Source: Haloflavibacter putidus
GTDB taxonomy: Bacteria; Bacteroidota; Bacteroidia; Flavobacteriales; Flavobacteriaceae
Reading direction: 5' to 3'
Length of the DNA: 64,000 bases
NCBI RefSeq assembly: GCF_006546625.1
Contig: NZ_VIAR01000001.1
Coordinates: 1-64,000 of the forward strand
Positions 667 to 56,893 of the stretch are shown in pieces. The first letter of the stretch is position 1, and the number at the start of each line of letters is the position of its first letter. The notes beneath the pieces are model-generated. The model made no database searches and was not told the origin of the DNA. It saw nothing but the letters and a program-made list of their open reading frames with translations. The translations under genes were made by a program, and so were the position numbers.

Positions 667-1527
667 ATGGAAGAAAACCAACAAGAAGAAGAACGGCAAA
701 AAAACATCGACTCTGAGTTAAAGAAAACAAATTCAGAAGAAAAAAACACGAAAAAAAGTCACGGACAAATATTAAAAGAACAAATTTCTGAAGGTCAGGA
801 AATCTACAAACGAAGTTCAAAGAGTATATTTTTAAGTTCGTTTACCGCCGGTTTAGAAATTGGCTTTAGTTATCTTTTGCTTTGCACCCTCTTCTATTTT
901 CTAACCGGTATTTTTACGGAAGAAGTAAATTTTAAAATGCTTGCTCTGGTTTATCCGTTTGGTTTTTTGATGGTTATTTTAGGACAATCTATTTTGTTTA
1001 CCGAGCAAACTTCGCTTTTGAGCCTACCGGTTCTTAACAAGAAGCAATCTGTATGGAAACTTTTAAAGTTATGGACCATTGTAATTATCGGCAATTTAAT
1101 TGGTGGTTATCTTATTGCCTTGGTTCTGTTATGGATTGGTCCCAAGCTACATATTTTCGATATGAAAACCGTAGAAAAAATCGCAATGCACGTAACTGAA
1201 GCTGCATCGTTTAGTATTTTTGTGAGCGCCATTTTAGCGGGTTGGTTAATGGGTTTACTCTCCTGGCTTATTACCTCCTCAAAAGATACGGTAAGTCGTA
1301 TTTTAATTATATTCGGGATAACCGCTACCATGTCTTTTACCGGTTTACACCATAGTATAATTGGTAATGTAGAGGTTTTTGCGGGTTTGGTGAGTTCAGA
1401 AAAAATACAGCTTTTAGACTATGCAAAATTTCAGAGTTTAGCTTTATTGGGCAACGCCCTTGGCGGAGCTGTTTTTGTAGCTCTCTTAAAATACCGCGCT
1501 TTTAGCGTAAATTTTCCGGTAGATTAA
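667..1527 (+). CDS. Formate/nitrite transporter (FNT) family membrane protein
   Basis: A 286-residue protein with a strongly charged N-terminal tail (Glu/Lys/Gln-rich, about residues 1-55). Roughly six hydrophobic helices follow, at about 60-83, 90-113, 127-152, 177-200, 208-232 and 255-278. The pattern and phrases such as FTAGLEIG, GNLIGG and GNALGGAVFVALL fit the FNT/YfdC-like branch of anion channels, which form pentamers in the inner membrane and pass small monovalent anions. The actual substrate (formate, nitrite, hydrosulfide or other) cannot be read from the sequence. It stands alone, flanked by long repeat-rich gaps. The first of the TTTACGGAA words described in the findings lies at 913-921. 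Confidence 0.75.
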   Translation: MEENQQEEERQKNIDSELKKTNSEEKNTKKSHGQILKEQISEGQEIYKRSSKSIFLSSFTAGLEIGFSYLLLCTLFYFLTGIFTEEVNFKMLALVYPFGFLMVILGQSILFTEQTSLLSLPVLNKKQSVWKLLKLWTIVIIGNLIGGYLIALVLLWIGPKLHIFDMKTVEKIAMHVTEAASFSIFVSAILAGWLMGLLSWLITSSKDTVSRILIIFGITATMSFTGLHHSIIGNVEVFAGLVSSEKIQLLDYAKFQSLALLGNALGGAVFVALLKYRAFSVNFPVD

Positions 1528-1586
1528 ATTAGGTGTTGGTGATAAGCTGTAAGCTATAGTCTATATTAAATGAATTAAAATTAGCA

Positions 1587-1704
1587 CCAATTGTATAGTG
1601 TATAGCGTATAATGTAATATTGTATTTTATAAATTTTATAGGAAAGAAATTAACTAATTGACCAATCCCGAATATACCAAATTAACTAATTTATAAATCA
1701 CTAA
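1587..1704. repeat. Intergenic direct repeat, copy 1 (about 118 bp)
   Basis: This block recurs 225 bp further on at 1812-1929. The first 107 bp are identical, and I see two mismatches in the last 11. It is AT-rich and contains the phrases GTATAGTGTATAGCGTATAATG and TTAACTAATTGACCAATCCC in broken form. The gap 1528-2053 holds no gene; apart from these copies it is filled with word-like sequence of the family described in the findings. Confidence 0.9.
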
Positions 1705-1811
1705 TACACGAATATTCGATTATACCATTATAAGAAAAACGCCCCACGAGCAACGAAAAACGAACAACGCACAACGCCTAGCAATTAACTGAATCCCTAA
1801 TTTCCAATCCG

Positions 1812-1929
1812 CCAATTGTATAGTGTATAGCGTATAATGTAATATTGTATTTTATAAATTTTATAGGAAAGAAATTAACTAATTGACCAATCCCGAATAT
1901 ACCAAATTAACTAATTTACATATCACTAA
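1812..1929. repeat. Intergenic direct repeat, copy 2
   Basis: Second copy of the block at 1587-1704, in the same orientation. Between the copies (1705-1811) is a different word-like stretch containing AACGAAAAACGAACAACGCA. No coding potential is visible in either copy. Confidence 0.9.
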
Positions 1930-2053
1930 TTACTAATTAACTAATCCCCAAACCACGAAAATACCTCTCCATAAAATTTTATAGATTAATTTTCGTTCCT
2001 AAAACAAGCAAATATTATTAAATTCGCCCTCGAGTGATTTTTAAACCATTATA

Positions 2054-5000
2054 ATGAAGAATTTCAACTTTAGCCGGTGGAACCAAATTTTAGGTTGGGC
2101 CGTTTTCTTAATAGCTTTAATTACCTATACGTTAACGGTAGAGCCCACTACCAGTTTTTGGGATTCTGGAGAATATATTTCTACCTCCGCAAAGTTACAA
2201 GTAGGTCACCCGCCGGGAGCGCCGTTTTTTCAAATGATGGGCGCTTTCTTTTCTATGTTTGCCCCAGACGCAGAAAATGTAGCTTTTATGGTAAATATGC
2301 TTTCGGCTGTAGCTAGTGCTTTTACCATTCTATTTATGTTTTGGTCTATCTCGCTCTTGGTAAGAAAGATTTCGGGACCGGCAGAGACTTTATCCGGTTC
2401 AGAAAAAATTGCCGTTCTTGGCAGTGCTGCCGTTGGCAGTTTGGCCTTTAGTTTTACCGATAGTTTTTGGTTTAATGCAGGAGAAACCGAAGTTTATGCA
2501 ATGGCAAGTTGTTTAATGGCTATTATGTTTTATCTGGGCCTTTTATGGGAACGCGATATGTTTAAACCCCGCGGCAACCGTTGGCTTATTTTAATCGCAT
2601 TTATTATTGGACTTTCTTTTGGGGTGCATTTTATGGCTTTGCTTACCATTCCTGCAATCGGTTTTTTATATTACTTTAAAAACGTAGAAAAAATAACGGT
2701 TAAGAATTTCATTTTCGCCAATCTTATCGTGGTGGCCATCTTACTGTTTATCTTTCTATTATTGCTACCGTACACGCTTACTTTCTTTGCGGAAGCAGAA
2801 GTGTTTTTTGTAAACAGTATTGGCTTGCCGTTTAACTCCGGTACTATAATAGCCGGTCTTCTTGTAATTGCTGCATTTTATTATTTGCTTCGGTACACCC
2901 GAAAAAAAGACTTTATACACGCCAACACTTTTGTGCTGTGCATTCTCTTTATTTTTATAGGATTTTCCAGCTGGATTATGTTACCAATTCGTGCCAACGC
3001 CGGGACGGTAATTAACGAAAACAGTCCGGATAACGCCAGAGAATTATTGGCGTATTATAACCGCGAACAATACCCGGACAATAGCTTGTTTTACGGTCCG
3101 CAATTCTCCGATATTTTTGGCACTTTAGACCCGGACACTCCATATATAGACGACAAACCGAAATACGAAGAAAACTACGAAACCGGCACCTACGAGATTG
3201 TAAACAACTACAAAAATGCTAAGCAAAACTCCGGTCCGCAGCACAAAGCTTTGTTACCACGAATGTGGAGTACAGAACACGCCTCTAATTATATGCAGTT
3301 TACCGGGGCTTTAGATTTTAGCATAAAACCCGAATACAGAAGTGAACAGCAGTTGGTGCAAACCGTTCGGGAGTTTAAAAAAGCTTATGCCTTAAACCAG
3401 ATTACCAACGAAGATTATATTTCTTTCCTTCAGCAATTTAGTCAGTATTTAAATGTCGAAAAACCTACTATGGCGTCCAATCTTCGTTATTTGTTCGAGT
3501 TTCAAGTAGGTTATATGTATTGGCGCTATTTTATGTGGAATTTTGTTGGGCGTCAAGACGATGTACAAGGTAAATATAACGACGTACACGGTAATTGGCT
3601 TAGCGGAATAAACTTTTTAGACGAGATAAGATTGGGCTCACAAGAAAATTTACCTTCCGATGTAAAAAATAATAAAGCCCGTAATACTTATTTCTTTTTA
3701 CCGCTTATTTTAGGATTGCTCGGTTTGGTTTTTCAGTTAAAAAACGACAATAAAAACTTTTGGGTATTATTGGTGTTTTTCCTCTTTACGGGAATTGCAC
3801 TAAAAATTTACCTCAACGAACGTCCTTTTGAACCACGCGAACGCGATTATGCCTTGGTTGGTTCTTTTTATGTATTTGCCATCTGGATTGGTTTTGGGGT
3901 TTATGCCTTATTCGATTTGCTGCGCGATCGCCTAAAACCCAAAATAGTAGCGCCACTGGTTACCGTGGTTTGTTTACTTGCCGTTCCCGGGATTTTGGTT
4001 TCTCAAAACTGGGACGATCACGATCGTTCAGATAGATATACCGCGCGTTCTATGGCAAAAATGTATTTAGACTCTGTAGAGCAAAACGGCATCTTGTTTA
4101 CCATTGGAGACAACGATACTTTTGCGCTTTGGTATGCGCAAGAAATTGAAGGCTACCGCACAGATGTACGCATTATAAACACCAGTTTATTGGCTACTTC
4201 TTGGTATATCTCGCAAATGAAAGAAGCCGCTTACAAAAGTAAACCGGTAGAAACTATTTTAGAGAGAGAAGATTTTCATTACGGCACCAACGATTATATA
4301 CGCTATTACGAAGATCCACGAATTAAAGATACCTTACTTATTAAAAAGTGGATACAATATATTGCGAGTGATAACCCAACCACCCAAGCAGAAATGCAAA
4401 ATGGGCAAACAATTAATACTTTTCCTACCAAAAATGTACGCATTCCGGTTAACCCGGAAAAAGCGATTGCCAGCGGAATTGTAAAGGAGGAAGACCGCGA
4501 TAAAATTGTACCGCATATCGATTTAGAGATTGGTAGTGAAGTTATTTATAAAAACACTTTACTAATGTTAGACATTGTAGCCAACGCAGAATGGGAAAGA
4601 CCTATTTACTTTACCGGCGGCAGCTTTGGCGATGCCAACTATTTATGGATGAAAGATTACTTACAATTAGACGGCGTTTGCTATAAATTGGTGCCAATAC
4701 AAACCAAAATAGATCCGGAAACCCCATACGATATGGGAAGAATAGATACCGAAAAAATGTACGAGATTGTTACCAATTGGGATTGGGACAATAATGGTAG
4801 CGATGACATTTATCACGATCCGGAAACCCGTAAAAATTCGATTACTTATCGTGGTAACTTGGCGCGTTTGGTAGAAAATTTACTGAAAGAAGGTAAAACC
4901 CAAAAAGCAAAAGAGATTTTAAATTTGGGTATGGAAAAAATGCCGGTAGATAAATTTGGCTATTACACACTTTTAGAACCCTTTATTAGTGGTTATTATC

Positions 5001-5374
5001 AAATTGGAGAAAAAGAAAAAGCGCGAGAAATTTGGCGAGAAGTAGCAGGAAAGTACAAAGAAACCCTGCAATATTACAGTCAGCTTAGCTTAGACAGACA
5101 ATACCAAATGGGCGAAGAGATAATTACCAATATAGAGCGTTACCGCAGCTTGGTAGATTTGTTGCTGTATAACCAAGACGAGCAATTAATAGAGCAAGAA
5201 GCCAAAAAGTTTAATGAGCATTTGCAACTCTTTGAACACTTTTACGAAGATGAAGAAGACTATGATCCGGCGCAGCAACAAGAGCAAATAGACCCAAATC
5301 AAGAAGATTTGCTGCCAGATAACAACCAAAAGCCATTACCAGTTGACTCTGCCCAAAGCACCCCGCTACCGTAA
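2054..5374 (+). CDS. DUF2723 family membrane protein with C-terminal TPR-like region
   Basis: A 1106-residue protein with the DUF2723 signature near the N-terminus: EPTTSFWDSGEY (residues 30-41) followed by GHPPGAP (51-57). About a dozen hydrophobic segments follow up to about residue 670, then a large soluble part. Around residues 955-1030 there are TPR-like helices (GKTQKAKEILNLGM, GEKEKAREIWREV), and the protein ends in an acidic Gln/Pro-rich tail. Members are common in Bacteroidota and share the architecture of GT-C glycosyltransferases such as protein O-mannosyltransferases. The WDSGE acidic motif after the first helix is consistent with that, but the donor and acceptor are unknown. The 3' end overlaps the start of the deacetylase gene, suggesting co-expression in envelope glycan work. 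Confidence 0.85.
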   Translation: MKNFNFSRWNQILGWAVFLIALITYTLTVEPTTSFWDSGEYISTSAKLQVGHPPGAPFFQMMGAFFSMFAPDAENVAFMVNMLSAVASAFTILFMFWSISLLVRKISGPAETLSGSEKIAVLGSAAVGSLAFSFTDSFWFNAGETEVYAMASCLMAIMFYLGLLWERDMFKPRGNRWLILIAFIIGLSFGVHFMALLTIPAIGFLYYFKNVEKITVKNFIFANLIVVAILLFIFLLLLPYTLTFFAEAEVFFVNSIGLPFNSGTIIAGLLVIAAFYYLLRYTRKKDFIHANTFVLCILFIFIGFSSWIMLPIRANAGTVINENSPDNARELLAYYNREQYPDNSLFYGPQFSDIFGTLDPDTPYIDDKPKYEENYETGTYEIVNNYKNAKQNSGPQHKALLPRMWSTEHASNYMQFTGALDFSIKPEYRSEQQLVQTVREFKKAYALNQITNEDYISFLQQFSQYLNVEKPTMASNLRYLFEFQVGYMYWRYFMWNFVGRQDDVQGKYNDVHGNWLSGINFLDEIRLGSQENLPSDVKNNKARNTYFFLPLILGLLGLVFQLKNDNKNFWVLLVFFLFTGIALKIYLNERPFEPRERDYALVGSFYVFAIWIGFGVYALFDLLRDRLKPKIVAPLVTVVCLLAVPGILVSQNWDDHDRSDRYTARSMAKMYLDSVEQNGILFTIGDNDTFALWYAQEIEGYRTDVRIINTSLLATSWYISQMKEAAYKSKPVETILEREDFHYGTNDYIRYYEDPRIKDTLLIKKWIQYIASDNPTTQAEMQNGQTINTFPTKNVRIPVNPEKAIASGIVKEEDRDKIVPHIDLEIGSEVIYKNTLLMLDIVANAEWERPIYFTGGSFGDANYLWMKDYLQLDGVCYKLVPIQTKIDPETPYDMGRIDTEKMYEIVTNWDWDNNGSDDIYHDPETRKNSITYRGNLARLVENLLKEGKTQKAKEILNLGMEKMPVDKFGYYTLLEPFISGYYQIGEKEKAREIWREVAGKYKETLQYYSQLSLDRQYQMGEEIITNIERYRSLVDLLLYNQDEQLIEQEAKKFNEHLQLFEHFYEDEEDYDPAQQQEQIDPNQEDLLPDNNQKPLPVDSAQSTPLP

Positions 5375-5999
5375 GTTTTTAGATTACTTAAAGTTTATAC
5401 GCGTACCGGCCATAATGAAACGCTTTTATTCCAACTATGTTTGGAATAAAAGCGTTTCTAAAAAAAACTTATACTTAACTTTTGACGATGGCCCAATTCC
5501 TGAAGTCACTCCCTGGGTTTTAAAAACCCTAAAAGAATACCAAGCCGAAGCAACTTTTTTTTGTATTGGCGAAAATGCAGAAAAACATCCCGAACTATTT
5601 AAACAACTTTTAGCTTCGGGAAATGCGGTTGGCAATCATACACATAAGCATTTAAACGGTTGGAAAAGCAATACCAAAACCTATTTAGAAAATACAGAGC
5701 AAGCCAATACAATAATACAAAGCAAATTATTTAGACCTCCTTACGGAAAAATTCGCGCAAAGCAAGCTAATTATTTGCTACAAAAAGGATATAAAATTAT
5801 AATGTGGAGTGTTTTGAGCAGAGATTACGACGCTTCTGTATCGCGAGAAAGATGTCTTAAAAATGTATTGTACTATGCAAAACCGGGAAGCATCGTTGTG
5901 TTTCACGACAGCCTAAAAGCAGAGAAAAACCTACGCTATGTTTTACCGAAGGTTTTAGACTTTTACAGCAAAAAAGGGTATTTATTTAAAAAACTTTAA
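5343..5999 (+). CDS. Polysaccharide deacetylase (NodB homology, carbohydrate esterase 4)
   Basis: 218 residues with all main NodB motifs: TFDDGP (46-51; catalytic base and metal Asp), NHTHKH (98-103; zinc histidines), RPPYGK (131-136), W155 and D161, and FHDS (187-190). The family removes N- or O-acetyl groups from chitin oligomers, peptidoglycan or other glycans. The start is uncertain. No ATG precedes residue 25, so either TTG at 5343 (overlapping the upstream gene by 32 bp) or ATG at 5415 is used. I prefer the TTG because the segment around FIRVPAIMKRFYSNYVW looks like the usual N-terminal region of flavobacterial homologues. No signal peptide is obvious, which is common for this subgroup. 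The stop overlaps that of the convergent gene by 4 bp. Confidence 0.85.
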   Translation: MTLPKAPRYRKFLDYLKFIRVPAIMKRFYSNYVWNKSVSKKNLYLTFDDGPIPEVTPWVLKTLKEYQAEATFFCIGENAEKHPELFKQLLASGNAVGNHTHKHLNGWKSNTKTYLENTEQANTIIQSKLFRPPYGKIRAKQANYLLQKGYKIIMWSVLSRDYDASVSRERCLKNVLYYAKPGSIVVFHDSLKAEKNLRYVLPKVLDFYSKKGYLFKKL

Positions 6000-6295
6000 G
6001 CATTTTTTTGAACAGCCTCCACCAAACTTTCCACCGCAAGGTTACCCGCTTCTTGCCACAGTAATTTTTCGTTTTTATAAATCATAAAATTAGGGAGGTG
6101 GTTAATTTTCAAAGCTTGCACTAACTTTTCGTTGCTTTGTGCATCTATTTTAATAACCCTGGAATCTAAGTTTGGAGCGGCCGCCACTTTTTTAAGCTTG
6201 TCTTTAAGACCCTCTACTTGCTCTGGGTTTTCGCTATCGTAAAAACAAAGCAAGACCGGTTTTTCAGATTGTATTAAACTCCCAAATTTTGCCAT
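5996..6295 (-). CDS. Thioredoxin-like protein without active-site cysteines
   Basis: A 99-residue single-domain protein with the thioredoxin pattern: PVLLCFYD (13-20; strand before the active site), VIKIDAQ (47-53) and the cis-proline turn HLPNFMIYK (66-74, P68). Where CxxC should stand the sequence reads DSENPEQ, so neither redox cysteine is present. It therefore cannot act as a dithiol oxidoreductase and more likely serves as a binding or chaperone-type fold. It is transcribed alone and converges on the deacetylase gene with overlapping stops. Confidence 0.75.
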   Translation of the reverse strand: MAKFGSLIQSEKPVLLCFYDSENPEQVEGLKDKLKKVAAAPNLDSRVIKIDAQSNEKLVQALKINHLPNFMIYKNEKLLWQEAGNLAVESLVEAVQKNA

Positions 6296-6460
6296 AAATT
6301 TTTATTTTGAAAATAAAATTAAGCAAGGTGTTTAAAACCACCAAAAGATTAGGAAATTGTTAAGATTAATTCTATTACCTCTCCAAGTTTTTCAAAAACA
6401 TAAAGCCTTTTTTGCAGTACTACGGCAAAAAGGCTTTGTTTAATTTAATAAAATTTACTA

Positions 6461-7903: not shown

Positions 7904-7928
7904 TTAATCTTTTTGTCCGTTTAAGAGA

Positions 7929-7936
7929 CAAAAATA
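7929..7936 (-). promoter_or_regulatory. Probable -7 box (TATTTTTG) for the secreted surface protein
   Basis: TATTTTTG on the minus strand matches TAnnTTTG and lies about 26 bp before the ATG. I see no TTG box 17-23 bp further upstream, so only the -7 half is supported. Confidence 0.5.
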
Positions 7937-9603: not shown

Positions 9604-12444
9604 ATGGCCAATCAAAAACGCCTTTTCTTATTAGACGCTTATGCTTTAATTTTTAGAGGCTATTATGCCCTTATCAAAAACCCGATTATAAATTCTAAAG
9701 GCCAGGACACTTCTGCCATAATGGGTTTTGTAAATTCTTTGTTTGATGTTATAAAAAGGGAAAAACCAGACCATTTGGCCGTTTGTTTTGACAAAGATGG
9801 CAGTGCAGAACGCACAGAGCTTTTTGCAGAGTATAAAGCCAACAGAGACGCCACGCCAGATGTAATAAAACAATCTATCCCAATAATTCAAGACATTTTA
9901 AAAGCCATGCACATTCCGGTGGTAGAACTTTCGGGACTGGAAGCAGACGATATTATTGGCACCTTGGCAAAACAAGCCGAGAAAGAAAATTACCAGGTTT
10001 TTATGGTAACACCAGATAAAGATTTTGCGCAGTTGGTTTCTGAAAATATTTTTATGTACCGCCCGGCAAGAATGGGAAATAGTATTGAAGTTTGGGGAAT
10101 TCCGGAAGTGCAAAAACGCTTTGGTGTAGAAAAACCGGAGCAGGTTATAGATTATTTAGGAATGATGGGCGATGCCTCGGATAATATTCCGGGATTGCCC
10201 GGCGTGGGCGATAAAACCGCCAAAAAATTTATCAAAAAATATGGCGGCATGCAAGGTCTGTACGAAAATATAGACGAGCTAAAAGGCAAGATGAAAGAAA
10301 AGGTAATTGCCAATGAAGAATTGGGTCGCTTGTCCAGAAAACTCGCTACTATCTTTACGGAATGTGACGTAACTTTTAACGAAGAAGATTATGAACTTTC
10401 CAAACCCGATGCAGAAAAAGTAGTGGAAATTTTTCAAGAATTGGAGTTTAGAAGATTGACAGATCAATTTGTAAAAATGTTTAACGAAGGGAGTGAATCA
10501 GATAAAGGTCTTACTACTACTAACGCAAAAGCTAAGCAAAAAGACGAAAAGGTAGCCGGCGCCGGACAATTTTCTCTTTTCGGAAACGATACTTCTAAAG
10601 GAGATTTGGATGCCGAAGATTTTCAAGGTTACAAAAATTTAGAAAACACGCCGCATTTGTATCAAAAGGTAGAACCGGGAATGGCAACCAAGTTGTTTTT
10701 AGAACGTTTGATGAAACAAAAATCGGTTTGTTTTGATACCGAAACCACTAGCCTAAATACCAACCAAGCAAGTTTGGTGGGTATTGCCTTTAGTTGGGAA
10801 ACCGGCAAGGGTTATTATGTGAGTTTTCCGGAAGATCAAAAAGAAGCCCAAGAAAAAATAGAGCAATTCCGTGCATTTTTTGAGTCGGAAGCAATCGAAA
10901 AAGTTGGTCAGAATTTAAAATACGACATTAAGGTTTTGGCCAATTACAACATAGAAGTAAAAGGCAAGTTATTTGATACAATGTTGGCGCATTATATCAT
11001 CAATCCGGATATGCGCCATAATATGGACGTACTTTCGGAAACGTATTTAAATTACCAACCGCTTTCTATAGAAAAGCTTATTGGCAAAAAGGGGAAAAAC
11101 CAAAAATCTATGCGTAGCGTCCCCCTAGAAAAACAAACCGAGTATGCCGTAGAAGATGCTGATATTACCTTGCAATTAAAACAATTCTTTACGGAAGAAC
11201 TAAAAGACGCCGATAATGAAAAACTGTTTAACCAAATAGAAATTCCTTTACTACGCGTTTTAGCAGAAATGGAATTGGAAGGCATTCGTATAGACCGCGA
11301 TTTTCTAAAACAACTTTCAGAAGCTTTGACCACAGACATTGCAGAACTGGAAAAAACCATTTACCAAGAAGCCGAGGAAGAGTTTAATATAGGTTCGCCA
11401 AAACAGCTGGGCGAGATTTTGTTTGGGAAGATGCAGCTGGTAGAAAAACCCAAGAAAACCCGTACCGGTCAGTTTTCTACCGGAGAAGAAGTTTTATCTG
11501 ACTTGGCCGGCGAACATCAAATTGTTGCAGACGTTTTGCAATGGCGCGGTTTGGTAAAACTTAAAAATACGTATATAGATGCCTTGCCGGAAGTAATAGA
11601 AGAAAAAACCGGACGTGTGCATACCCAATATATGCAAACCGTAGCGGCAACTGGCAGGTTAAGTTCTAACAATCCTAATTTACAAAACATCCCAATTCGT
11701 ACCGAGCGCGGCAGACAAGTCCGTAAAGCTTTTGTACCACGCGACGAAAATTATGTTTTGCTCGCCGCCGATTATTCGCAAATAGAATTACGAATAATAG
11801 CTGCTTTAAGCAAGGAAGACACGATGATAAAAGCTTTTAAAAACGGCGAAGATATTCACGCTTCTACCGCAGCCAAAGTTTTTGATGTTCCTATGGAAGA
11901 AGTTACCCGCGCCCAACGTAGCAATGCCAAAACCGTAAATTTTGGGATTATTTACGGCGTTTCTGCTTTTGGCCTAAGCAACCAAACCGATTTAAGTCGC
12001 GCAGAAGCAAAAGAATTGATTGACACCTACTATAAAACTTATCCAAAATTGCGCAGTTATATACACGAGCAAGTAGAATTTGCCCGCGAGCACGGTTATG
12101 TTTCTACCGTTATGGGAAGAAGACGTTATTTAAAAGACATAACCGCTCGTAACCACGTGGTACGAAGCGCAGCAGAACGCAACGCGGTAAATGCGCCAAT
12201 ACAAGGAAGTGCGGCAGATATTATAAAGGTGGCAATGATTAACATTCAGAAGAAATTAAAAGATAAAAATTATAAATCTAAAATGTTGCTGCAAGTGCAC
12301 GATGAGTTGGTGTTTGATGTACATAAAGACGAGTTGGAAGAATTAAAAGCCCTAATCAAAACCGAAATGGAAAATGCTTTTAAACTAGAAGTTCCGTTAG
12401 ATGTAGAAATTGGAGTTGGGCAAGATTGGCTGGAAGCGCATTAG
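9604..12444 (+). CDS. polA: DNA polymerase I
   Basis: 946 residues with the full three-domain layout. The N-terminal 5'-nuclease (about 1-290) has LLDAYALIFRGYYA, VCFDKDG, LEADDIIGT and GDASDNIPGLPGVGDKTA. The 3'-5' exonuclease (about 355-540) has FDTETTSL, GQNLKYDIKVL and YAVEDADIT, so the DEDDy catalytic residues appear intact and proofreading is likely active. The polymerase domain (about 570-946) has motif A DYSQIELRI, motif B RSNAKTVNFGIIYG and motif C VHDELVF. It fills gaps and removes RNA primers in replication and repair. Two TTTACGGAA words lie inside it (10354, 11188). A short AT-rich tail with two small genes follows. Confidence 0.98.
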   Translation: MANQKRLFLLDAYALIFRGYYALIKNPIINSKGQDTSAIMGFVNSLFDVIKREKPDHLAVCFDKDGSAERTELFAEYKANRDATPDVIKQSIPIIQDILKAMHIPVVELSGLEADDIIGTLAKQAEKENYQVFMVTPDKDFAQLVSENIFMYRPARMGNSIEVWGIPEVQKRFGVEKPEQVIDYLGMMGDASDNIPGLPGVGDKTAKKFIKKYGGMQGLYENIDELKGKMKEKVIANEELGRLSRKLATIFTECDVTFNEEDYELSKPDAEKVVEIFQELEFRRLTDQFVKMFNEGSESDKGLTTTNAKAKQKDEKVAGAGQFSLFGNDTSKGDLDAEDFQGYKNLENTPHLYQKVEPGMATKLFLERLMKQKSVCFDTETTSLNTNQASLVGIAFSWETGKGYYVSFPEDQKEAQEKIEQFRAFFESEAIEKVGQNLKYDIKVLANYNIEVKGKLFDTMLAHYIINPDMRHNMDVLSETYLNYQPLSIEKLIGKKGKNQKSMRSVPLEKQTEYAVEDADITLQLKQFFTEELKDADNEKLFNQIEIPLLRVLAEMELEGIRIDRDFLKQLSEALTTDIAELEKTIYQEAEEEFNIGSPKQLGEILFGKMQLVEKPKKTRTGQFSTGEEVLSDLAGEHQIVADVLQWRGLVKLKNTYIDALPEVIEEKTGRVHTQYMQTVAATGRLSSNNPNLQNIPIRTERGRQVRKAFVPRDENYVLLAADYSQIELRIIAALSKEDTMIKAFKNGEDIHASTAAKVFDVPMEEVTRAQRSNAKTVNFGIIYGVSAFGLSNQTDLSRAEAKELIDTYYKTYPKLRSYIHEQVEFAREHGYVSTVMGRRRYLKDITARNHVVRSAAERNAVNAPIQGSAADIIKVAMINIQKKLKDKNYKSKMLLQVHDELVFDVHKDELEELKALIKTEMENAFKLEVPLDVEIGVGQDWLEAH

Positions 12445-27282: not shown

Positions 27283-28134
27283 TTGTTCAGCATAGAAAAA
27301 CATATAGTTCCTGCAGACGTTGAAAAAATACGTTTGCAGGAATATGCTTCTAAAGTTTTTGATAGCTTACCCACGCGTTCTTCGGTAAAAAAAGCCATTA
27401 AAAAAGAACGTATTTTACTTAACGGAAAAGCGGCAAACACCGGAGATTGGATACAAGAAGGGCAGATTTTAGAGCTCTTGGCGGAAGAAATTAAGCAAAA
27501 GAAAATTTTTAAATTAAGATTACCGGTAGTTTTTGAAGACGATTTTTTGGCGGTAATTCATAAACCGGCCGGCTACCCAACCAATGGCAATTATTTTAAA
27601 ACTATAGAAAATGCCTTGGCGTATAATTTAAAAACTTCCACGCAAAAAGACGCCCTCCCTTACCCAACTGCCGTACATAGGTTAGATAATCCTACCAGCG
27701 GACTTCTACTAATTGCCAAAACCCAAAACGCCAAAACCCATTTAAGCTTGGCTTTCGAAAATCGCACGGTAGAAAAAAGCTATTTGGCAATTGTTTCGGG
27801 AGAAATACCGAAAAAAGGTAGTTTTGATAATACCATTGAAAATAAAAATGCCTTTACGGAATTTACTCGCCTAAAAAACTTCCGTAAAGCAGAAAAAGAA
27901 TATGCCTTGGTAGAATTATTTCCGGAAAGTGGCAGGACGCACCAATTGCGCATTCACCTATCTACCAACAATTTTCCTATTGTTGGCGATAAAGAATACG
28001 GCTCTACAGAAACGGTAAAAGGCATTTTGCTTACCGCGCATTCTTTAAAATTCAAACATTTTATCACCAAAGAAAAACTAAACTTTACAGCAGAAATCCC
28101 TAAAGCATTTCAAAAGTTTATGGAAGAAAAATAG
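27283..28134 (+). CDS. RluA-family RNA pseudouridine synthase
   Basis: 283 residues with an N-terminal S4-like RNA-binding part (about 30-70: TRSSVKKAIKKERILLNGK) and a pseudouridine synthase domain. The catalytic Asp lies in HRLDNPTSGLLL (about 127-138), with further motifs EKSYLAIVSG and SGRTHQLRIHL. It isomerises specific uridines in rRNA or tRNA; the target cannot be told. The start is TTG at 27283, 3 bp after asnS; no ATG is available before the S4 part. Inside the gene two TTTACGGAA words face each other (27853 forward, 27880 reverse). Confidence 0.88.
   Translation: MFSIEKHIVPADVEKIRLQEYASKVFDSLPTRSSVKKAIKKERILLNGKAANTGDWIQEGQILELLAEEIKQKKIFKLRLPVVFEDDFLAVIHKPAGYPTNGNYFKTIENALAYNLKTSTQKDALPYPTAVHRLDNPTSGLLLIAKTQNAKTHLSLAFENRTVEKSYLAIVSGEIPKKGSFDNTIENKNAFTEFTRLKNFRKAEKEYALVELFPESGRTHQLRIHLSTNNFPIVGDKEYGSTETVKGILLTAHSLKFKHFITKEKLNFTAEIPKAFQKFMEEK
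27853..27888. repeat. Inverted pair of TTTACGGAA words inside the pseudouridine synthase gene
   Basis: TTTACGGAA (27853-27861) and TTCCGTAAA (27880-27888) are separated by 18 bp and encode FTE and FRK in the same reading frame. It is the only close head-to-head pair in the window. Confidence 0.75.
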
Positions 28135-50203: not shown

Positions 50204-50205
50204 AC

Positions 50206-50979
50206 TTAAACTATTCTAAAAATTTCTTTAGCATTTTTGGTAGTCTGCTCGGCTATTTCTTCCCAAGACAAACCGTAAATTTCAGCTAATTTTTTTTTAA
50301 TTTCAACCAAATAAGCACTTTCATTTCGCTTACCGCGGAAGGGACTCGGCGCCAAATAAGGAGCATCTGTTTCCAAAACAATTTCAGAAAGTGGTATTTG
50401 GTCTAAAAACTTATCTATCTTACCATTTTTAAAAGTAACCACGCCCCCAATTCCTAATTTTAAATTATAAGATAAGGCTTGATGGGCTTGTTCTAAATTT
50501 CCGGTAAAGCAATGAAATATTCCGTAAAGCTTTTCGTCTTTTTCTTCTTCTAATATTTCAAAAATCTCATCAAAGGCTTTCCTGCAGTGAATTACTATGG
50601 GCAGACCTAATTTTTTTGCGAGTTTTATTTGTTTCCTAAAAGCATCCTGTTGCATAGACAAAGTAGATTTATCCCAATGCAGATCTATACCTATTTCCCC
50701 TACTGCGTAGAACTTTTTATCTTTACGGAATTGCTCTTCAACGTGCTTCAATTCTTCTTTATATGCTTCTTGTACAGAGCACGGATGCAAGCCCATCATC
50801 AAATGCATTTTGCCTGGATAAGCTTCTGCCAAATCATACATTGCCTGTGTGGTAGCCGAATCTATGGCGGGTAAAAATATTTTTTCTACTCCGGCTGCTA
50901 TTGCTCGATCTACAACTTCTTTTCTATCTTCTTCAAAAGCTTCACTGTATAAATGTGCGTGTGTGTCTATTAACGTCAT
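50206..50979 (-). CDS. tatD: TatD-family metal-dependent hydrolase
   Basis: 257 residues from the ATG at 50979 (MTLIDTHAHLYSEAF); an upstream TTG at 51006 is rejected. TIM-barrel metal motifs: HxH in DTHAHLY (4-10), GEIGIDLHWD, HCRKAF, HCFTGN and ETDAPYLAP. TatD proteins are 3'-5' DNA exonucleases or D-amino-acyl hydrolases with one or two metals. It is the first gene of the tatD-asparaginase unit and is divergent from the retropepsin-like gene. Confidence 0.9.
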   Translation of the reverse strand: MTLIDTHAHLYSEAFEEDRKEVVDRAIAAGVEKIFLPAIDSATTQAMYDLAEAYPGKMHLMMGLHPCSVQEAYKEELKHVEEQFRKDKKFYAVGEIGIDLHWDKSTLSMQQDAFRKQIKLAKKLGLPIVIHCRKAFDEIFEILEEEKDEKLYGIFHCFTGNLEQAHQALSYNLKLGIGGVVTFKNGKIDKFLDQIPLSEIVLETDAPYLAPSPFRGKRNESAYLVEIKKKLAEIYGLSWEEIAEQTTKNAKEIFRIV

Positions 50980-51007
50980 TTTGCGAAGGTAATTTAAATT
51001 GTTCAAT

Positions 51008-51015
51008 TATATTTG
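51008..51015 (+). promoter_or_regulatory. Probable -7 box (TATATTTG) of the retropepsin-like gene
   Basis: TATATTTG lies 11 bp before the ATG at 51027, so the transcript starts only a few bases ahead of the gene. A TTG at 50981-50983 is 24 bp upstream, slightly far. Confidence 0.55.
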
Positions 51016-51026
51016 CTCAAAAAGAG

Positions 51027-51464
51027 ATGGCAAGTTTACGCAAACTTTTAACCGATAAAGGCTACAAACGTATAAAATTACAAATTACTGCTACCAACCA
51101 CTTAGAGATTCCTGCCAAAATAAATGGCGTTGAAGGTATTTTTTTATTAGATACCGGTGCCTCCAGTTCGTGCGTGGGCACAAATACGGCAGAGCATTTT
51201 AAGCTCTTTGCAGAAGATAGCGATATTAAAGCCGCGGGGGCCGGAGCAACCAATATGCTTACACAGGTTTCTGCCAACAATGTTTTGGAAATAGACCAAT
51301 GGAAAGCCAAAAAAGTAGATTTGGTACTTTTTGATCTTCGGCATGTAAATGAGGCTTTAATACAACACGATGCAGAAACCGTGCACGGCATTATTGGAGC
51401 AGATATTCTGCAAAAAAGCAAAGCAGTAATAGATTATAAACAAAAGTGCGTTTATCTGAAATAA
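51027..51464 (+). CDS. Retropepsin-like aspartic protease domain protein
   Basis: 145 residues from ATG 51027; the frame is open further upstream, but that region would cover the tatD start and the promoter. The core motif is DTGASSS (42-48) after the strand GVEGIFLL, with the second glycine-rich turn HGIIGADIL near residue 128. This is the clan AA single-domain pattern that works as a homodimer, as in the clan AA proteins of other bacteria. No transmembrane segment, so it is probably cytosolic or soluble. Substrate unknown. Confidence 0.8.
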   Translation: MASLRKLLTDKGYKRIKLQITATNHLEIPAKINGVEGIFLLDTGASSSCVGTNTAEHFKLFAEDSDIKAAGAGATNMLTQVSANNVLEIDQWKAKKVDLVLFDLRHVNEALIQHDAETVHGIIGADILQKSKAVIDYKQKCVYLK

Positions 51465-51535
51465 GCTTTCTATAAGACTTTATATACGTTAAACTTTTTT
51501 ACCAAATGCACGTTTACTACCACTGGATAAAAATA

Positions 51536-51569
51536 AAAAAAGCAACGAATTGACATTCGTTGCTTTTTT
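51536..51569. terminator. Bidirectional terminator between the retropepsin-like gene and sucB
   Basis: A 15-bp perfect stem AAAAAAGCAACGAAT/ATTCGTTGCTTTTTT (51536-51550 with 51555-51569), loop TGAC, with T-runs at both ends. Confidence 0.93.
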
Positions 51570-51591
51570 GCTGGTATACAAAATAAATTAA

Positions 51592-52920
51592 TTAGAGTTC
51601 TAATGCGTGTTTTACATCATTATCCATCAGAAGTTCTTCGGGGTTCTCTAAGGCCTCTTTTATGGCTACTAAAAAGCCAACAGATTCTTTTCCGTCAATA
51701 ATTCTATGGTCGTAAGAAAGTGCCAAATACATCATTGGTCTAATTTCTACTTTGCCATCTACTGCTACCGGACGCTCAAGAATATTATGCATCCCTAATA
51801 TTCCGCTCTGCGGCGGATTGATAATCGGAGTAGATAACATAGAGCCAAAAACGCCCCCGTTAGAAATAGTAAAGGTACCACCAGTCATTTCGTCTACAGT
51901 AATTTTACCGTCTCTTGCTCGTGTTGCAAGGCGTTTTACTTCCTGTTCAATTCCGCGGAAGCTTAAATCTTCTGCATTGCGCATAACCGGCACCATTAAA
52001 CCTTTTGGTCCTGAAACCGCGATACTGATATCTTTATAATCGTATGTAATCATTTCTTTGCCGTCTATCATGCTGTTTACTGCAGGATATTCGTCTAAAG
52101 CTCTTACTACTGCTTTGGTAAAGAAAGACATAAAACCAAGGCTCACACCGTGTTTTTCTTTAAAGTCTTCTTTATATTTTTTACGCAATTCAAAAATTGG
52201 CGTCATATCTGCCTCGTTAAAGGTGGTTAACATAGCAGTTTCGTTTTTGGCTCCCACCAAACGTTCTGCTACTTTGCGACGCAACATAGACATTTTTTTG
52301 CGCTTTTCTCCGCGGTTACCTTTACCCGGTGTACCCATAGATGGTTTGGCGTTTTGCGCATCTTCTTTGGTAATGCGACCATTTTTACCGCTTCCTTTTA
52401 CATCTTTAGGATCTATATCCTTTTCTGATAAAATCTTTTTAGCTGCAGGAGAAGGACTTCCTTCTGCATAGTTTTTATCGTCTTGCTTTTGCTCTGGTGT
52501 AGATTCTTTAGAAGGCGTTTGTGATTTTGAATCGGTTTTAACCTTTTCACTTTCTTTTTTGCCTTTATCGTCTTCTAAATCTTTTTCAGACTTTTCAGAT
52601 TTGTCTTTTTTATCTTCGGATTTATCGTCATCTTTAGACTCTTCTTCCTCTGATTTATCTTCTTTATCGTCGCCAGATTTTTCTGCGTCTGTATCTATTA
52701 GGCAGATTACTTCGCCAACCTCTACAACGTCTCCTTCTTCCGCTTTAAGCGTAATAACACCGCTTGCTTCTGCAGGAATTTCTAAGGTTGCTTTATCGCT
52801 GTCTACCTCTGCAATAGCTTGGTCTTTTTCTACATAGTCGCCGTCTTCTACTAACCACTCTGCAATTTCAACTTCTGTAATAGATTCTCCCGGTGAGGGG
52901 ACTTTCATTTCTAAAGCCAT
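51592..52920 (-). CDS. sucB: Dihydrolipoyllysine-residue succinyltransferase (2-oxoglutarate dehydrogenase E2)
   Basis: 442 residues. Lipoyl domain 1-80 with the modified Lys in DSDKATLEI (K43). Then a highly charged linker (about 83-150) of alternating Asp/Glu and Lys/Ser ([18 protein letters not shown]), far more acidic than the usual Ala/Pro linker. E3-binding domain (about 155-190: [20 protein letters not shown]). Catalytic CAT domain (about 210-442) with [11 protein letters not shown] carrying the active His and Asp. It transfers the succinyl group to CoA in the TCA cycle. The E1 gene precedes it by 28 bp on the minus strand. Confidence 0.95.
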
Positions 52921-52948
52921 AATTTAATTTATTTCTGTATACTTAATT

Positions 52949-55714
52949 TTATTCGTTTAATGTTTTATCAAAAACGCCCGCAATAACACGATCGTGTCGT
53001 CTTTTAAATCGCACTGAACTTCCTGCTGCTGGAGCTCCGTAAAACAACCTACTGCAAACCCTAAAGTTTTTAAATTCTTCTAAGTGCAGTAGCAAGTGTG
53101 AATAGGCACCCATATTTCTTGGTTCTTCTTGTGCCCAAACCAAATCGTCTGCGTTTTCATATTTGCTTATTATTTCTCTTATTCTGCTGGTAGGAATTGG
53201 AAATAGTTGTTCTAAACGTACTAGAGCAACATCTTCTCGTTCTCTTTCTTCTTTTGCCTCTAACAGGTCGTAATAGAATTTACCCGTACAGAAAACCAAA
53301 GTTTTGATTTTTTCTACTTTAGCGTCTGCATCGTCTATTACGGTTTGGAAACTGCCGTTTGCTAAATCTTCTTTTGGCGAAACTACTTTTGAGTGTCGCA
53401 ATAAGCTCTTAGGTGTAAAGACAATTAATGGTTTTCTAAACCCAACTTTCACTTGTCTTCTTAAAAGGTGGAAAAAGTTTGCCGGGGTAGTTACATCTGC
53501 TATGAACATATTATCTTTAGCACAAAGTTGTAAATAACGCTCCATTCTTCCTGAAGAATGTTCTGCTCCTTGACCTTCGTAACCGTGCGGCAAGAACATT
53601 ACTATACCATTTTGTAATTTCCATTTATCTTCTGCGGCAGAAATATATTGGTCTATTACAATTTGCGCCCCATTACTAAAATCGCCAAACTGTGCTTCCC
53701 AAATGGTTAAACTATTTGGGCTCGCCATGGAATAACCATAATCGAAAGCTAAAACTGCATATTCTGACAATAAGGAGTTATAAATATAAAATTCACCTTG
53801 ATCTTCTTTTAATTGGTTAAGTAAAATTACTTCTTCTTCACTATCTTCTACCTTTAGAACCGCATGTCTATGGGAAAAAGTTCCACGTTCGACATCTTGA
53901 CCTGACATACGCACGTCGTGACCTTCATGCAATAACGTACCATAAGCCAAGAGTTCTGCCATACCCCAATCTAGCTTATTTTTATCGAAATACATTTTTC
54001 TGCGCGTCTCAGTTAATTTACCGAGTTTGCGCATAAATTTTTTATCTTCTGGCAGCTTGGTTATAGTTTTGGCAATTTTGCTAAGATTGTCCAAATCAAA
54101 AGTAGTGTCTACCGGCTCCATCATATCACTTTCGGTAGCATAATTATAACCTTCCCATTCTTCTTGTAGAATTGGCGTTATGACGGTTTTATCTTCTTTT
54201 TTAGAGCTTTCCAGATCTTCTTCTAGCTCTTTTTTATATTCTTCTTTTAATTTTTCTACATAGTCTTCGTCAATTACATTTTCTTGCAAAAGACGTTTTA
54301 CATAAATATCTCTAGAATTATCGTGTTTGGCAATTGCCTTATATAATTTTGGCTGAGTAAATCTTGGCTCATCTCCTTCGTTATGACCATATTTTCGGTA
54401 ACCTAATAAATCTATAAATACATCTTTTTGAAAATGCATTCTAAAATCTAGAGCAAATATAGAAGCGTGAACTACAGCTTCTGCATCGTCTGCATTTACG
54501 TGTAAAACAGGCGATTTGGTTATTTTCGCCACATCTGTACAATAGGTAGAAGAACGGCCTTCTAAATAATTGGTAGTAAAGCCTATTTGGTTGTTTACCA
54601 CTATATGAATTGTACCTTGAGTAGTATAGGCTTCTAATTGCGCCATCTGAATAGTTTCGTATACTACACCTTGCCCAGCAATAGCTGCATCGCCGTGTAC
54701 AATAATAGGTAATACACTTTTAGGATCGTCTAAGTGATGGTCATCTTGTTTTGCACGCGCAATACCTTGCACAATAGGACCAACAGCTTCTAAGTGAGAA
54801 GGGTTTGGCGCCATATTAAGGTTTATCTCTTTACCGCTTTCTGTCTTGCGACAAGAAGTCCACCCTAAATGATATTTTACGTCTCCATCAAAAATTTCCT
54901 GTTCGTAATCTTTACCTTCAAATTCGCTAAAGATATCTTTTGCGCTTTTACCAAAAATATTGGTTAAGGTATTTAATCTACCCCGGTGCGCCATTCCCAT
55001 CACAAATTCATGTACGCCAACTTCTGCTGCATGCTCTATTAAAGTATCTAAAGCAGGAATAAGAGTCTCATTTCCTTCCAGCGAAAAACGTTTTTGACCA
55101 ACATATTTTCTATGTAAAAAGGATTCGAAAGAAACTGCCTGGTTAAGTTTTCTAAGAATTTGTTTTTTCTTTTCTTCCGAAAAGTTTGGATGATTTTCGT
55201 TTCTTCTTATATATGTCTGTATCCAATTTATCTCACGGGGTTTACGAATAAACATATACTCCATCCCGATAGACTCACAGTATATTTTTTGCAAGTGCTC
55301 TACAATATTACGTAGGCTTGTTGCACCGAGTTTTAAGAACTCGCCGGCTTTAAACTCTTTGTCTAAATCTTCTTCAGATAGACCAAAATTCTCTAAAGCT
55401 AAGGTTGGCCGGTATTTTCTACGTTCCCGCACCGGGTTAGTTGCGGTAAATAAATGACCACGCGTTTGGTAAGCGTCAATCAATTGTACTACTTTAAATT
55501 CTTTTAAGAAGACTTCGGGAATTTCCACGCCTTCTTCTTGCGCCATTGGCATATCTCTTTCAGCGGTGCCATTTTCTACCGTTTTTCCAAAATCAAAACC
55601 TTGAAAAAAAGCTCTCCAACTAGGTTCTACACTATCTGGGTACTGCAGGTATTTATCGTAAAGTTCTGCGAAATAAGCGGTGTGCGCCGCATTGAGAAAT
55701 GAATATTTATCCAT
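52949..55714 (-). CDS. sucA: 2-oxoglutarate dehydrogenase E1 component
   Basis: 921 residues. The N-terminal E1o segment (DKYSFLNAAHTAYFAELYDKYL) binds the complex. The ThDP-binding region has GMAHRGRLNTL, HGDAAIAGQGVVYE and NNQIGFTT, and the C-terminal half has GQDVERGTFSHRHAVL, FLPHGYEGQGAEHSSGR and EEPRNMGAYSH. It oxidatively decarboxylates 2-oxoglutarate with thiamine diphosphate and passes the succinyl group to the lipoyl E2. The E3 subunit (lpd) is not in the window. A -7 box stands at 55753-55760, so sucA-sucB form one operon ending at the terminator 51536-51569. Confidence 0.97.
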   Translation of the reverse strand: MDKYSFLNAAHTAYFAELYDKYLQYPDSVEPSWRAFFQGFDFGKTVENGTAERDMPMAQEEGVEIPEVFLKEFKVVQLIDAYQTRGHLFTATNPVRERRKYRPTLALENFGLSEEDLDKEFKAGEFLKLGATSLRNIVEHLQKIYCESIGMEYMFIRKPREINWIQTYIRRNENHPNFSEEKKKQILRKLNQAVSFESFLHRKYVGQKRFSLEGNETLIPALDTLIEHAAEVGVHEFVMGMAHRGRLNTLTNIFGKSAKDIFSEFEGKDYEQEIFDGDVKYHLGWTSCRKTESGKEINLNMAPNPSHLEAVGPIVQGIARAKQDDHHLDDPKSVLPIIVHGDAAIAGQGVVYETIQMAQLEAYTTQGTIHIVVNNQIGFTTNYLEGRSSTYCTDVAKITKSPVLHVNADDAEAVVHASIFALDFRMHFQKDVFIDLLGYRKYGHNEGDEPRFTQPKLYKAIAKHDNSRDIYVKRLLQENVIDEDYVEKLKEEYKKELEEDLESSKKEDKTVITPILQEEWEGYNYATESDMMEPVDTTFDLDNLSKIAKTITKLPEDKKFMRKLGKLTETRRKMYFDKNKLDWGMAELLAYGTLLHEGHDVRMSGQDVERGTFSHRHAVLKVEDSEEEVILLNQLKEDQGEFYIYNSLLSEYAVLAFDYGYSMASPNSLTIWEAQFGDFSNGAQIVIDQYISAAEDKWKLQNGIVMFLPHGYEGQGAEHSSGRMERYLQLCAKDNMFIADVTTPANFFHLLRRQVKVGFRKPLIVFTPKSLLRHSKVVSPKEDLANGSFQTVIDDADAKVEKIKTLVFCTGKFYYDLLEAKEEREREDVALVRLEQLFPIPTSRIREIISKYENADDLVWAQEEPRNMGAYSHLLLHLEEFKNFRVCSRLFYGAPAAGSSVRFKRRHDRVIAGVFDKTLNE

Positions 55715-55752
55715 AAGAGGAAACTACAATTATGTTTTTTCTTTAAACATTT

Positions 55753-55760
55753 CAAAAATA
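55753..55760 (-). promoter_or_regulatory. Probable promoter -7 box (TATTTTTG) of sucA-sucB
   Basis: TATTTTTG on the minus strand with a TTG (55777-55779) 16 bp upstream. The ATG of sucA follows after a leader of about 34 nt. Confidence 0.6.
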
Positions 55761-55839
55761 CAACTTTTAGCAACAACAAGCCCCTTCTAAGTATAAATTT
55801 ATCTTATAATGCCTTTATTCTTTTCTACCATACAAGCTT

Positions 55840-56814
55840 TTATACCGTCCGAGTCATTAAGGAGTTACCAAATTGTAAAAGCATTTCTTTTTTATTTTCT
55901 TCTATCTCTAATTGTTTTAGAACTTCAAAAGCTTTAGCTGTATATCTTTCTATTTCTGCTTTGGCCAAAGTTGCTGCGCCACTACTTTCAAAAATACTTT
56001 TTACAGTTTCTATCTTCTCGGTAGCATCTGCAGGAGTTATAGTATACAGATGCTCTAATTGTGCGGCTTCTTGTGCAGAAGACTTTTCTATAGCTTTAAG
56101 GTATAAAAAAGTTTTTTTATTCTCTATAATATCACCTCCTACTTGCTTCCCAAAACTTTCTGGATCTCCAAAAGCATCTAAATAATCATCTTGTAGCTGA
56201 AATGCAATACCTAAGTTAACACCATAATCGTAAATTATTTTTTTGGCATCTTCTTGAGCGCCAGCAATAATGGCGCCCATTTCTAAGGCAGCTCCCACCA
56301 ATACGGCAGTTTTGCAGCGTATCATTTTAATATACTCTTCTAAACTCACTTTTTCTATAGTCTCAAAATCTACATCATACTGTTGACCCTCGCATACTTT
56401 AATGGCTGTTTTGGTAAATAAGGTTGCTAATTCTCTAAATGTTGCGCCTTGGTAATTTTCAAAAAGTTGGTATGCATTTATAAGCATTGCGTCTCCAGAG
56501 AGAATAGCTGTGTTAATATTCCACTTTTCATGAACGCTTTCTTTACCGCGGCGTATGGGTGCAGCATCCATAATATCATCATGCATAAGCGAAAAATTAT
56601 GAAAAACCTCTATAGCTAAAGCAGCATCTAACGCTTTTTTATGCGAAGTGCCAAATACTTCTGCCGCCATTAAAACCATTACTGGTCGTAAGCGTTTCCC
56701 ACCAATATTTAAAATATAAGAAATGGGCTCGTATAGGTTTTTAGGCTCTTGCACTTTTATTTCTTCTTGCAAGTAAGAAGAAAAAGCCGATTGGTAAAAA
56801 GAAACTGCCTTCAT
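55840..56814 (-). CDS. Polyprenyl diphosphate synthase (probably short-chain)
   Basis: 324 residues with GGKRLRP (38-44), the first Asp-rich motif DDIMD (79-83) and the second DDYLD (210-214), plus KTAVLV (169-174). These are the metal-binding motifs of trans-isoprenyl diphosphate synthases. The residue five positions before the first motif is Phe (F74), an aromatic of the kind that blocks chain growth, so the product is more likely farnesyl/geranylgeranyl diphosphate than a long quinone chain; this is inference only. It is transcribed alone from the divergent promoter at 56834-56862. Confidence 0.88.
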   Translation of the reverse strand: MKAVSFYQSAFSSYLQEEIKVQEPKNLYEPISYILNIGGKRLRPVMVLMAAEVFGTSHKKALDAALAIEVFHNFSLMHDDIMDAAPIRRGKESVHEKWNINTAILSGDAMLINAYQLFENYQGATFRELATLFTKTAIKVCEGQQYDVDFETIEKVSLEEYIKMIRCKTAVLVGAALEMGAIIAGAQEDAKKIIYDYGVNLGIAFQLQDDYLDAFGDPESFGKQVGGDIIENKKTFLYLKAIEKSSAQEAAQLEHLYTITPADATEKIETVKSIFESSGAATLAKAEIERYTAKAFEVLKQLEIEENKKEMLLQFGNSLMTRTV

Positions 56815-56833
56815 CTATTTTGTTAGTTTTAGA

Positions 56834-56862
56834 CAAAAATACCATAATTAAAAAGATTTCAA
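56834..56862 (-). promoter_or_regulatory. Promoter of the polyprenyl diphosphate synthase gene
   Basis: On the minus strand TTG (56860-56862), 18 nt, then TATTTTTG (56834-56841): good agreement with the Bacteroidota consensus. The ATG follows about 20 bp later. Confidence 0.75.
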
Positions 56863-56884
56863 ATTTTCTTTTACCAAGATATTC

Positions 56885-56893
56885 TTTACGGAA
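56885..56893 (+). repeat. TTTACGGAA word (intergenic)
   Basis: Copy of the over-represented 9-mer between the divergent promoters of the polyprenyl synthase and the TetR gene. It is the last copy in the window; none was seen over the next 7 kb. Confidence 0.7.

Follow-up and report, generated by a model that had tools for sequence, protein, structure and literature searches.

The first 64,000 nucleotides of contig NZ_VIAR01000001.1 of Haloflavibacter putidus, hereafter the window, carry many copies of a short word, CTTTACGGAA, which is found genome-wide, is selected, is used nearly equally on both strands, and occurs in several spellings, or dialects, in related genomes. The word is probably the core of a self-recognition signal of the DNA-uptake type in part of the genus Mesonia. 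The window is positions 1–64000 of contig C11 in a 2.92-Mb draft genome, G000, which belongs to Mesonia (Flavobacteriaceae). The related genomes include G005, a sister species (an uncultured Mesonia isolate); G003, M. algae DSM 15361; G015, M. profundi; G002, M. oceanica; G004, M. aestuariivivens; and G014, ‘Salegentibacter sp. R32’.

A sequence-only reading of the window had listed 24 places of the 9-mer TTTACGGAA and put the chance level at about one copy. All 24 are exact, with 14 on the plus strand and 10 on the minus strand, and 100 dinucleotide-preserving shuffles of the window gave a mean of 1.40 copies and never more than 4. As that reading had also noted for most copies, the 9-mer is preceded by C (19 of 24), so the full word is the 10-mer CTTTACGGAA. 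The 9-mer is thus borne out by its counts but is not the whole word, which is longer, specific to lineages within the genus, and varied by dialect. In the whole genome there are 953 copies of the 9-mer (493 forward, 460 reverse) compared to 72 of the reversed word, and 746 copies of the 10-mer compared to 8 of its reversed control – an excess of about 90-fold and a density of one 10-mer per 3.9 kb.

A 452-kb sample of G000 (388 kb of stretches plus the window) contains 106 copies of the 10-mer, while 2.6 are expected from a third-order Markov model. A count near the Markov expectation had been named as evidence against a selected word, and the observed count is far above it. Some counts were made without the repeat array of piece L014 that is described below, which leaves 448.7 kb and the same 106 copies. 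Enrichment over the Markov model or over synonymous-codon shuffles is 30- to 40-fold. Of the 21 pieces of G000 that were sampled, 20 contain the word, so it is not confined to one region of the chromosome. Every one of its 30 single-mismatch neighbours is far rarer than the word itself, the largest with 19 copies in the sample; all 30 taken together add up to 162. Several are above expectation (A at position 4, 12 observed and 0.9 expected; T at position 5, 19 and 2.4; T at position 10, 14 and 1.2), as tolerance or decay of the word would give.

Codon use does not account for the word. Synonymous codons were shuffled within 327 genes for 200 rounds, giving 2.3 copies of CTTTACGGAA on average and never more than 7, compared to 73 observed, and codon bias was rejected as the cause, as was codon-pair use as a full explanation. 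The copies in genes use all five stop-free reading frames; the missing frame would place TAA in frame. A dispersed repeat was rejected as well, since only 8 of the 106 copies have masked 60-base flanks like those of another copy, and 98 have no resemblance. The flanks do show weak preferences, being T-rich at −5 to −2 and avoiding C at +1.

Open reading frames (ORFs) were called mechanically, with a minimum of 80 codons. Most copies are inside ORFs (75 of 106 in G000 and 77 of 119 in G005), with more outside than expected – 31 in G000 (12.5 expected) and 42 in G005 (13.3 expected). Against the 3:2 ratio of open frames, the copies in genes are biased to the sense strand in G005 (59 of 77, p 0.002), while the bias in G000 is not significant (50 of 75, p 0.29). 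Pairs of neighbouring 9-mers within 60 bp are also more frequent than expected, with 11 in G000 and G005 together (about 5.5 expected). Eight of these 11 pairs are convergent, and four of the eight lie between ORFs.

The two strands are used about equally, 376 and 370 times for the 10-mer, as the sequence-only reading had proposed. This balance is weak evidence in a draft genome with randomly oriented contigs, and tests within contigs decide. Across the whole 418 kb of contig C1 of G005, strand is independent of GC skew (43+/49− at positive skew, 12+/15− elsewhere, Fisher p 1.0). In 22 stretches of contig C1 of M. algae, there is likewise no link (Fisher p 0.82), and the counts before and after about 440 kb are 19+/27− and 17+/13− (p 0.24). 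Within 20-kb pieces of G005 C1, 42 pairs of neighbouring copies share a strand and 56 do not; in the G000 sample, the figures are 39 and 47. Replication polarity was therefore rejected for G005 C1 and M. algae C1, and is weak in the G000 sample. FtsK-orienting polar sequences (KOPS) were rejected on the same ground: there is no strong polarisation, and the word stands on both strands whatever the sign of GC skew in all three data sets.

Four of 16 Mesonia genomes are rich in CTTTACGGAA (word/reversed control): G000 (746/8), G005 (804/14), M. algae (255/5) and M. profundi (263/18). Three are mildly raised – G001 (70/16), G006 (70/15) and G012 (69/14). Counts are low in G007 (27/8) and G008 (18/7), and in the remaining seven the word stays at the level of its control. 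In a family sample of 397 genomes, three of them Mesonia, none of the 394 outside the genus has more than 59 copies (control 29). Among 60 relatives, the 9-mer is 2-fold over control in two genomes of another family. A tree of DNA polymerase I (Pol I), a single gene, does not unite the four rich genomes (approximately unbiased test, p 0.0003), so that either a gain at the base with later losses or more than one gain is needed. Samples of 60 to 79 kb from each of G001, G004, G006, G007 and G008 revealed no different word of comparable strength, in a search that did not include G009 to G014; in the G002 sample, several other words reach z 8–9.

The word-rich genomes differ in spelling. CTTAACGGAA is enriched over its control in M. 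algae (170/12) and M. profundi (141/10), where it is about half to two thirds as frequent as CTTTACGGAA, and is found 54 times in G000 (control 15). The dialects follow relatedness, as M. algae and M. profundi, which share this spelling, form a sister pair in the Pol I tree. The M. algae sample is also enriched in CTTGACGGAA and CTTAGCGGAA, and CTTAACGGAA and CTTGACGGAA replace each other at two homologous sites. A second word, CTTYCGCGGAA, rises and falls with the main one from genome to genome in Mesonia: its counts over control are 251/2 in M. algae, 238/2 in M. profundi, 131/1 in G005, 125/0 in G000, 97/1 in G007, 52–55/0–2 in G001, G006 and G012, 19/2 in G008 and 5/2 in G009, and 0–2 copies are found in the other six. 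Because the reverse complement of its form CTTCCGCGGAA overlaps with that form, some places of the second word were counted on both strands. The two copies in the window are not clearly beyond chance (2 were reached by 3 of 100 shuffles). The second word is also mildly raised in G021 (29, control 0) and G025 (22, control 1).

With the general form CTT-N-CGGAA, spacers of 2 bases are enriched 6- to 12-fold in the rich genomes, spacers of 3 bases 1.8- to 4.9-fold, and spacers of 4 bases about 2-fold; no clear enrichment was found in these genomes for spacers of 0, 1 or 5 bases. The 3-base excess in G000 and G005 is no larger than the 4-base excess, and for this reason one reader serving both the main and the second word is only a suggestion.

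Conservation of individual sites was assessed in the window region, with aligned sites counted over the four spellings CTTTACGGAA, CTTAACGGAA, CTTGACGGAA and CTTAGCGGAA. In G005, 21 of 24 aligned window sites are identical (any 10-mer, 42%). In M. algae, 7 of 13 are identical and one more has switched spelling (baseline 6.4%), and in the word-poor G008 none of 11 is identical (baseline 8.4%). Sites of M. algae are identical in M. profundi in 7 of 15 cases, with one switch (18.8%, p 0.013), and in G008 in none of 17. G008 is nearer to the window in alignment identity than M. algae is (75.4% and 73.2%), and conservation of sites follows word-richness rather than overall similarity. Rich lineages thus have sites in common that the nearer but poor G008 has either lost or never had. 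A maintained signal would predict this pattern; mutation bias would not.

These properties would fit uptake of DNA biased toward the organism’s own kind. A putative surface or periplasmic receptor with sequence specificity would bind the word on incoming double-stranded DNA, and word-bearing DNA would be imported through ComEC and then recombined with the help of DprA and RecA. Through such biased uptake and recombination, copies could spread and persist wherever coding sequence tolerates them. Spelling would drift with the receptor to yield the dialects – CTTTACGGAA in G000 and G005, CTTTACGGAA with CTTAACGGAA in M. algae and M. profundi, CTTGACGGAA and CTTAGCGGAA in addition in M. algae, and CTTYCGCGGAA as a second word – and a single system may read all of the spellings.

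DNA uptake sequences (DUS) and uptake signal sequences (USS) are the classical cases of preference for DNA of one’s own kind, described in two proteobacterial families in which uptake is by type IV pili. The Neisseriaceae DUS, which is read by the minor pilin ComP, resembles the Mesonia word in being a 10-bp non-palindromic word with hundreds to thousands of copies and species dialects (PMC3630211). Two dialects may be found in one genome, and a dialect may arise by insertion of a single base; simDUS/kingDUS and wadDUS are counterparts for the A/T one-position spellings in one genome and for the inserted-base dialect, respectively. The Mesonia word differs in its unrelated sequence, its phylum and its copy number (746, compared to 943–5918 in the genomes quoted there), as well as in putative uptake and in two hallmark families of type IV pili that are not found in the word-rich genomes. 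The Pasteurellaceae USS (AAGTGCGGT) resembles it in having a short core, found mostly in ORFs and, as in G000 and G005, in excess outside them, and over-represented single-mismatch forms (PMC1939737). There, 65% of H. influenzae uptake sequences are in ORFs, with more outside than expected, an intergenic bias of the same kind as in G000 and G005. The flanking A/T segments of the USS are only weakly visible around the Mesonia word, and the two pilus families tested are again not in the rich genomes.

Several findings weigh against an uptake signal. ComEC and DprA, the competence core, speak for uptake in that all 16 Mesonia genomes have them (in G000, ComEC is encoded by an intact 679-residue frame carrying Competence and DUF4131 domains), but the word-poor species are included, so that the two do not discriminate between rich and poor. 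The four word-rich genomes have no T2SSF (pilus platform) and no T2SSE (ATPase) above the cut-off, in a search that did not extend to the pilins themselves. These two families are patchy in the genus, where platform and ATPase, of a type IV pilus or of a system like type II secretion, were found only in G002, G012, G013 and G014, all word-poor or mildly raised; the other 12 genomes have weak T2SSE matches below the cut-off. No receptor candidate was found, and a literature search on Mesonia and natural competence found no uptake data. The intergenic excess is missing in M. algae, where 6 of 104 copies (three spellings) are outside ORFs and 7.9 are expected. Only 2 of 8 window sites are identical in M. 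profundi, a weak match (baseline 6.8%, p 0.098). Spacing of the word is not even – it is slightly clumped, with coefficients of variation of 1.23 and 1.14. In the G000 sample, the strand of the word weakly follows GC skew (27+/18− and 23+/38−, Fisher p 0.03).

The pilus that reads the known DUS thus seems to be missing in word-rich genomes, and a type IV pilus is unsupported as the carrier there (hallmarks in 0 of 4). If the word is an uptake signal, its reader is probably something other than the known minor pilin. Since the pilus feature was looked for and not found, and uptake is only putative, the word is not classed as a DUS, though it would work like one. The sequence-only reading has good support for a selected, strand-symmetric, genome-wide word that resembles DNA uptake sequences, but the usual pilus hallmarks were not found with it.

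The main rivals are a binding protein and a Chi-like site. A genome-wide, non-polar DNA-organising or regulatory protein of the nucleoid-associated type, lost in some lineages, could have the word as its binding site. It would suit a word that is largely non-polar, found in and between genes, lineage-specific and conserved in position, and the enrichment of CTT-N2-CGGAA, and less so of CTT-N3-CGGAA and CTT-N4-CGGAA, is what protein binding can allow. Ten fixed bases at so large an excess are nevertheless sharper than the sites of familiar nucleoid proteins, and the copies are spread over nearly all sampled pieces and not gathered in a single region; this explanation is unlikely. Chances are slightly poorer still for a Chi-like hotspot, at which the word would modulate a RecBCD/AddAB-type nuclease-helicase at double-strand breaks and be selected for repair. 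Its density is within the range of E. coli Chi, 65 of the 106 copies in the G000 sample are in the sense of the skew, and copies in genes of G005 have the sense bias that is not significant in G000. Polarity is absent in the C1 contigs of G005 and M. algae, however, and strong gain or loss and mixed spellings within one genus would be unlike the signal of an essential repair enzyme.

A target of a DNA methyltransferase or restriction enzyme, or a self-mark for defence, might accumulate in the manner of HIP1, the palindromic, genome-wide short word of cyanobacteria that is also found in genes and spacers. In favour are the palindrome TTCCGCGGAA within the second-word form CTTCCGCGGAA and the covariation of the two words among Mesonia genomes. 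The main word itself is not palindromic, unlike HIP1, and restriction targets are usually avoided in genomes rather than enriched; such an origin is improbable. Codon or codon-pair bias, repeat elements or transcription terminators are very improbable indeed. The close, mostly convergent pairs are what might speak for them; for most copies they are refuted by the synonymous shuffles, the use of every stop-free frame, the unrelated flanks and the position of most copies inside ORFs.

If flavobacteria without the pilus hallmarks use a word of the DUS kind, this would point to a further origin of uptake specificity, with a different receptor. The word would then also be a tag at hand for the transformation of these marine bacteria, and a genus with both word-rich and word-poor species is a natural experiment for finding the reader. 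Also in favour of an uptake signal, Riemerella columbina is reported to prefer its own DNA in transformation (PMC7965970), and the authors of that paper assign it to the Flavobacteriaceae. They put forward A/T-rich k-mers as putative uptake words, with their function left open, in R. anatipestifer, R. columbina and F. johnsoniae. None of these is like CTTTACGGAA. No established DUS-type word in Bacteroidota was found among the papers listed by a literature search that largely excluded subscription papers, which makes this absence provisional. A text search for TTTACGGAA and four related strings had unrelated titles among the matches listed.

The copies in the window are listed in the table, together with variant spellings and the second word.

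Copies of the word, its variant spellings and the second word in the window
Feature	Position	Strand	Remarks
TTTACGGAA	913..921	+	preceded by T; G005 has TTTTACCGAA
CTTTACGGAA	8781..8790	-	identical in G005 and M. algae
TTTACGGAA	9451..9459	+	preceded by T; full CTTTACGGAA in G005
CTTTACGGAA	10353..10362	+	within DNA polymerase I gene (9604-12444); identical in G005
CTTTACGGAA	11187..11196	+	within DNA polymerase I gene (9604-12444); identical in G005
TTTACGGAA	23640..23648	+	preceded by A; same in G005
CTTTACGGAA	24952..24961	-	not kept in G005
CTTTACGGAA	25141..25150	+	not kept in G005
CTTTACGGAA	27852..27861	+	left arm of close inverted pair within ORF; both arms identical in G005
CTTTACGGAA	27880..27889	-	right arm of inverted pair with 27852..27861; identical in G005
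TTTACGGAA	33425..33433	-	preceded by G; G005 and M. algae likewise have GTTTACGGAA
CTTTACGGAA	34080..34089	+	identical in G005
CTTTACGGAA	37260..37269	+	outside ORFs; identical in G005
CTTTACGGAA	38990..38999	+	identical in G005
CTTTACGGAA	40287..40296	-	identical in G005
TTTACGGAA	40622..40630	-	preceded by G; not kept in G005
CTTTACGGAA	40916..40925	+	outside ORFs; identical in G005
CTTTACGGAA	44078..44087	-	identical in G005 and M. algae
CTTTACGGAA	44740..44749	-	identical in G005 and M. algae
CTTTACGGAA	45720..45729	+	outside ORFs; identical in G005
CTTTACGGAA	47214..47223	-	identical in G005
CTTTACGGAA	50520..50529	-	identical in G005 and M. algae
CTTTACGGAA	50721..50730	+	CTTTACGAAA in G005
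CTTTACGGAA	56884..56893	+	outside ORFs; identical in G005
variant CTTAGCGGAA	3599..3608	+	form enriched in M. algae sample
variant CTTAACGGAA	27418..27427	+	second spelling of M. algae and M. profundi
variant CTTGACGGAA	37933..37942	-	enriched in M. algae sample
variant CTTAACGGAA	39343..39352	-	second spelling of M. algae and M. profundi
variant CTTAACGGAA	44158..44167	-	second spelling of M. algae and M. profundi
second word CTTYCGCGGAA as CTTTCGCGGAA	34628..34638	-	
second word CTTYCGCGGAA as CTTCCGCGGAA	51951..51961	-	

The 20 window proteins that were scanned look like products of ordinary chromosomal genes. The nearest named relative of the window’s DNA polymerase I is that of G005 (95%), with 84% for G008 and 80% for M. 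algae.

Further enriched words are found elsewhere in the Flavobacteriaceae. The 8-mer CTTCGGAA, which may be a related word without the TA spacer, is enriched over control and strand-balanced in G027 (2187/322), G100 (2099/257), G077 (1495/187) and G022 (1255/298). It is over 3-fold in at least 17 of 235 genera sampled, and near or below control in most of 249 genomes, including G000 (96, control 127). It exceeds synonymous-codon shuffles (81 vs 8.5 in G027), and it uses all six frames. TTTCTGAA / TTTCTGAAA are over-represented in further relatives (L054, L056, L057, G077); in genes, they number 66 in G077 (shuffles 17.2) and 17 in G027 (shuffles 9.9), the latter inside the shuffle range. It is conceivable, if rather doubtful, that the family has self-recognition words built on CTT...CGGAA, with spacer and spelling differing by genus (CTTCGGAA in some, CTTTACGGAA and CTTYCGCGGAA in Mesonia), and that a putative receptor unrelated to type IV pilins reads them, which would make this an independently evolved uptake specificity. 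In contig C1 of G065 (L207–L222), words around TCCCTTTAGGG and TTTCGTGGGGT are found about 13–17 times each in 309 kb and are probably dispersed repeats.

Two stretches of G000 stand out. L016 (C2, 20001–40000) is a 20-kb stretch of 32% GC with zero copies of the word; the ten proteins scanned there are mostly hydrolase-like or of no clear family, and none is evidently mobile. L014:14837–17502 (C1, about 114.8–117.5 kb) has one repeat 40 times at regular intervals of about 66 bases, and looks like a CRISPR array.

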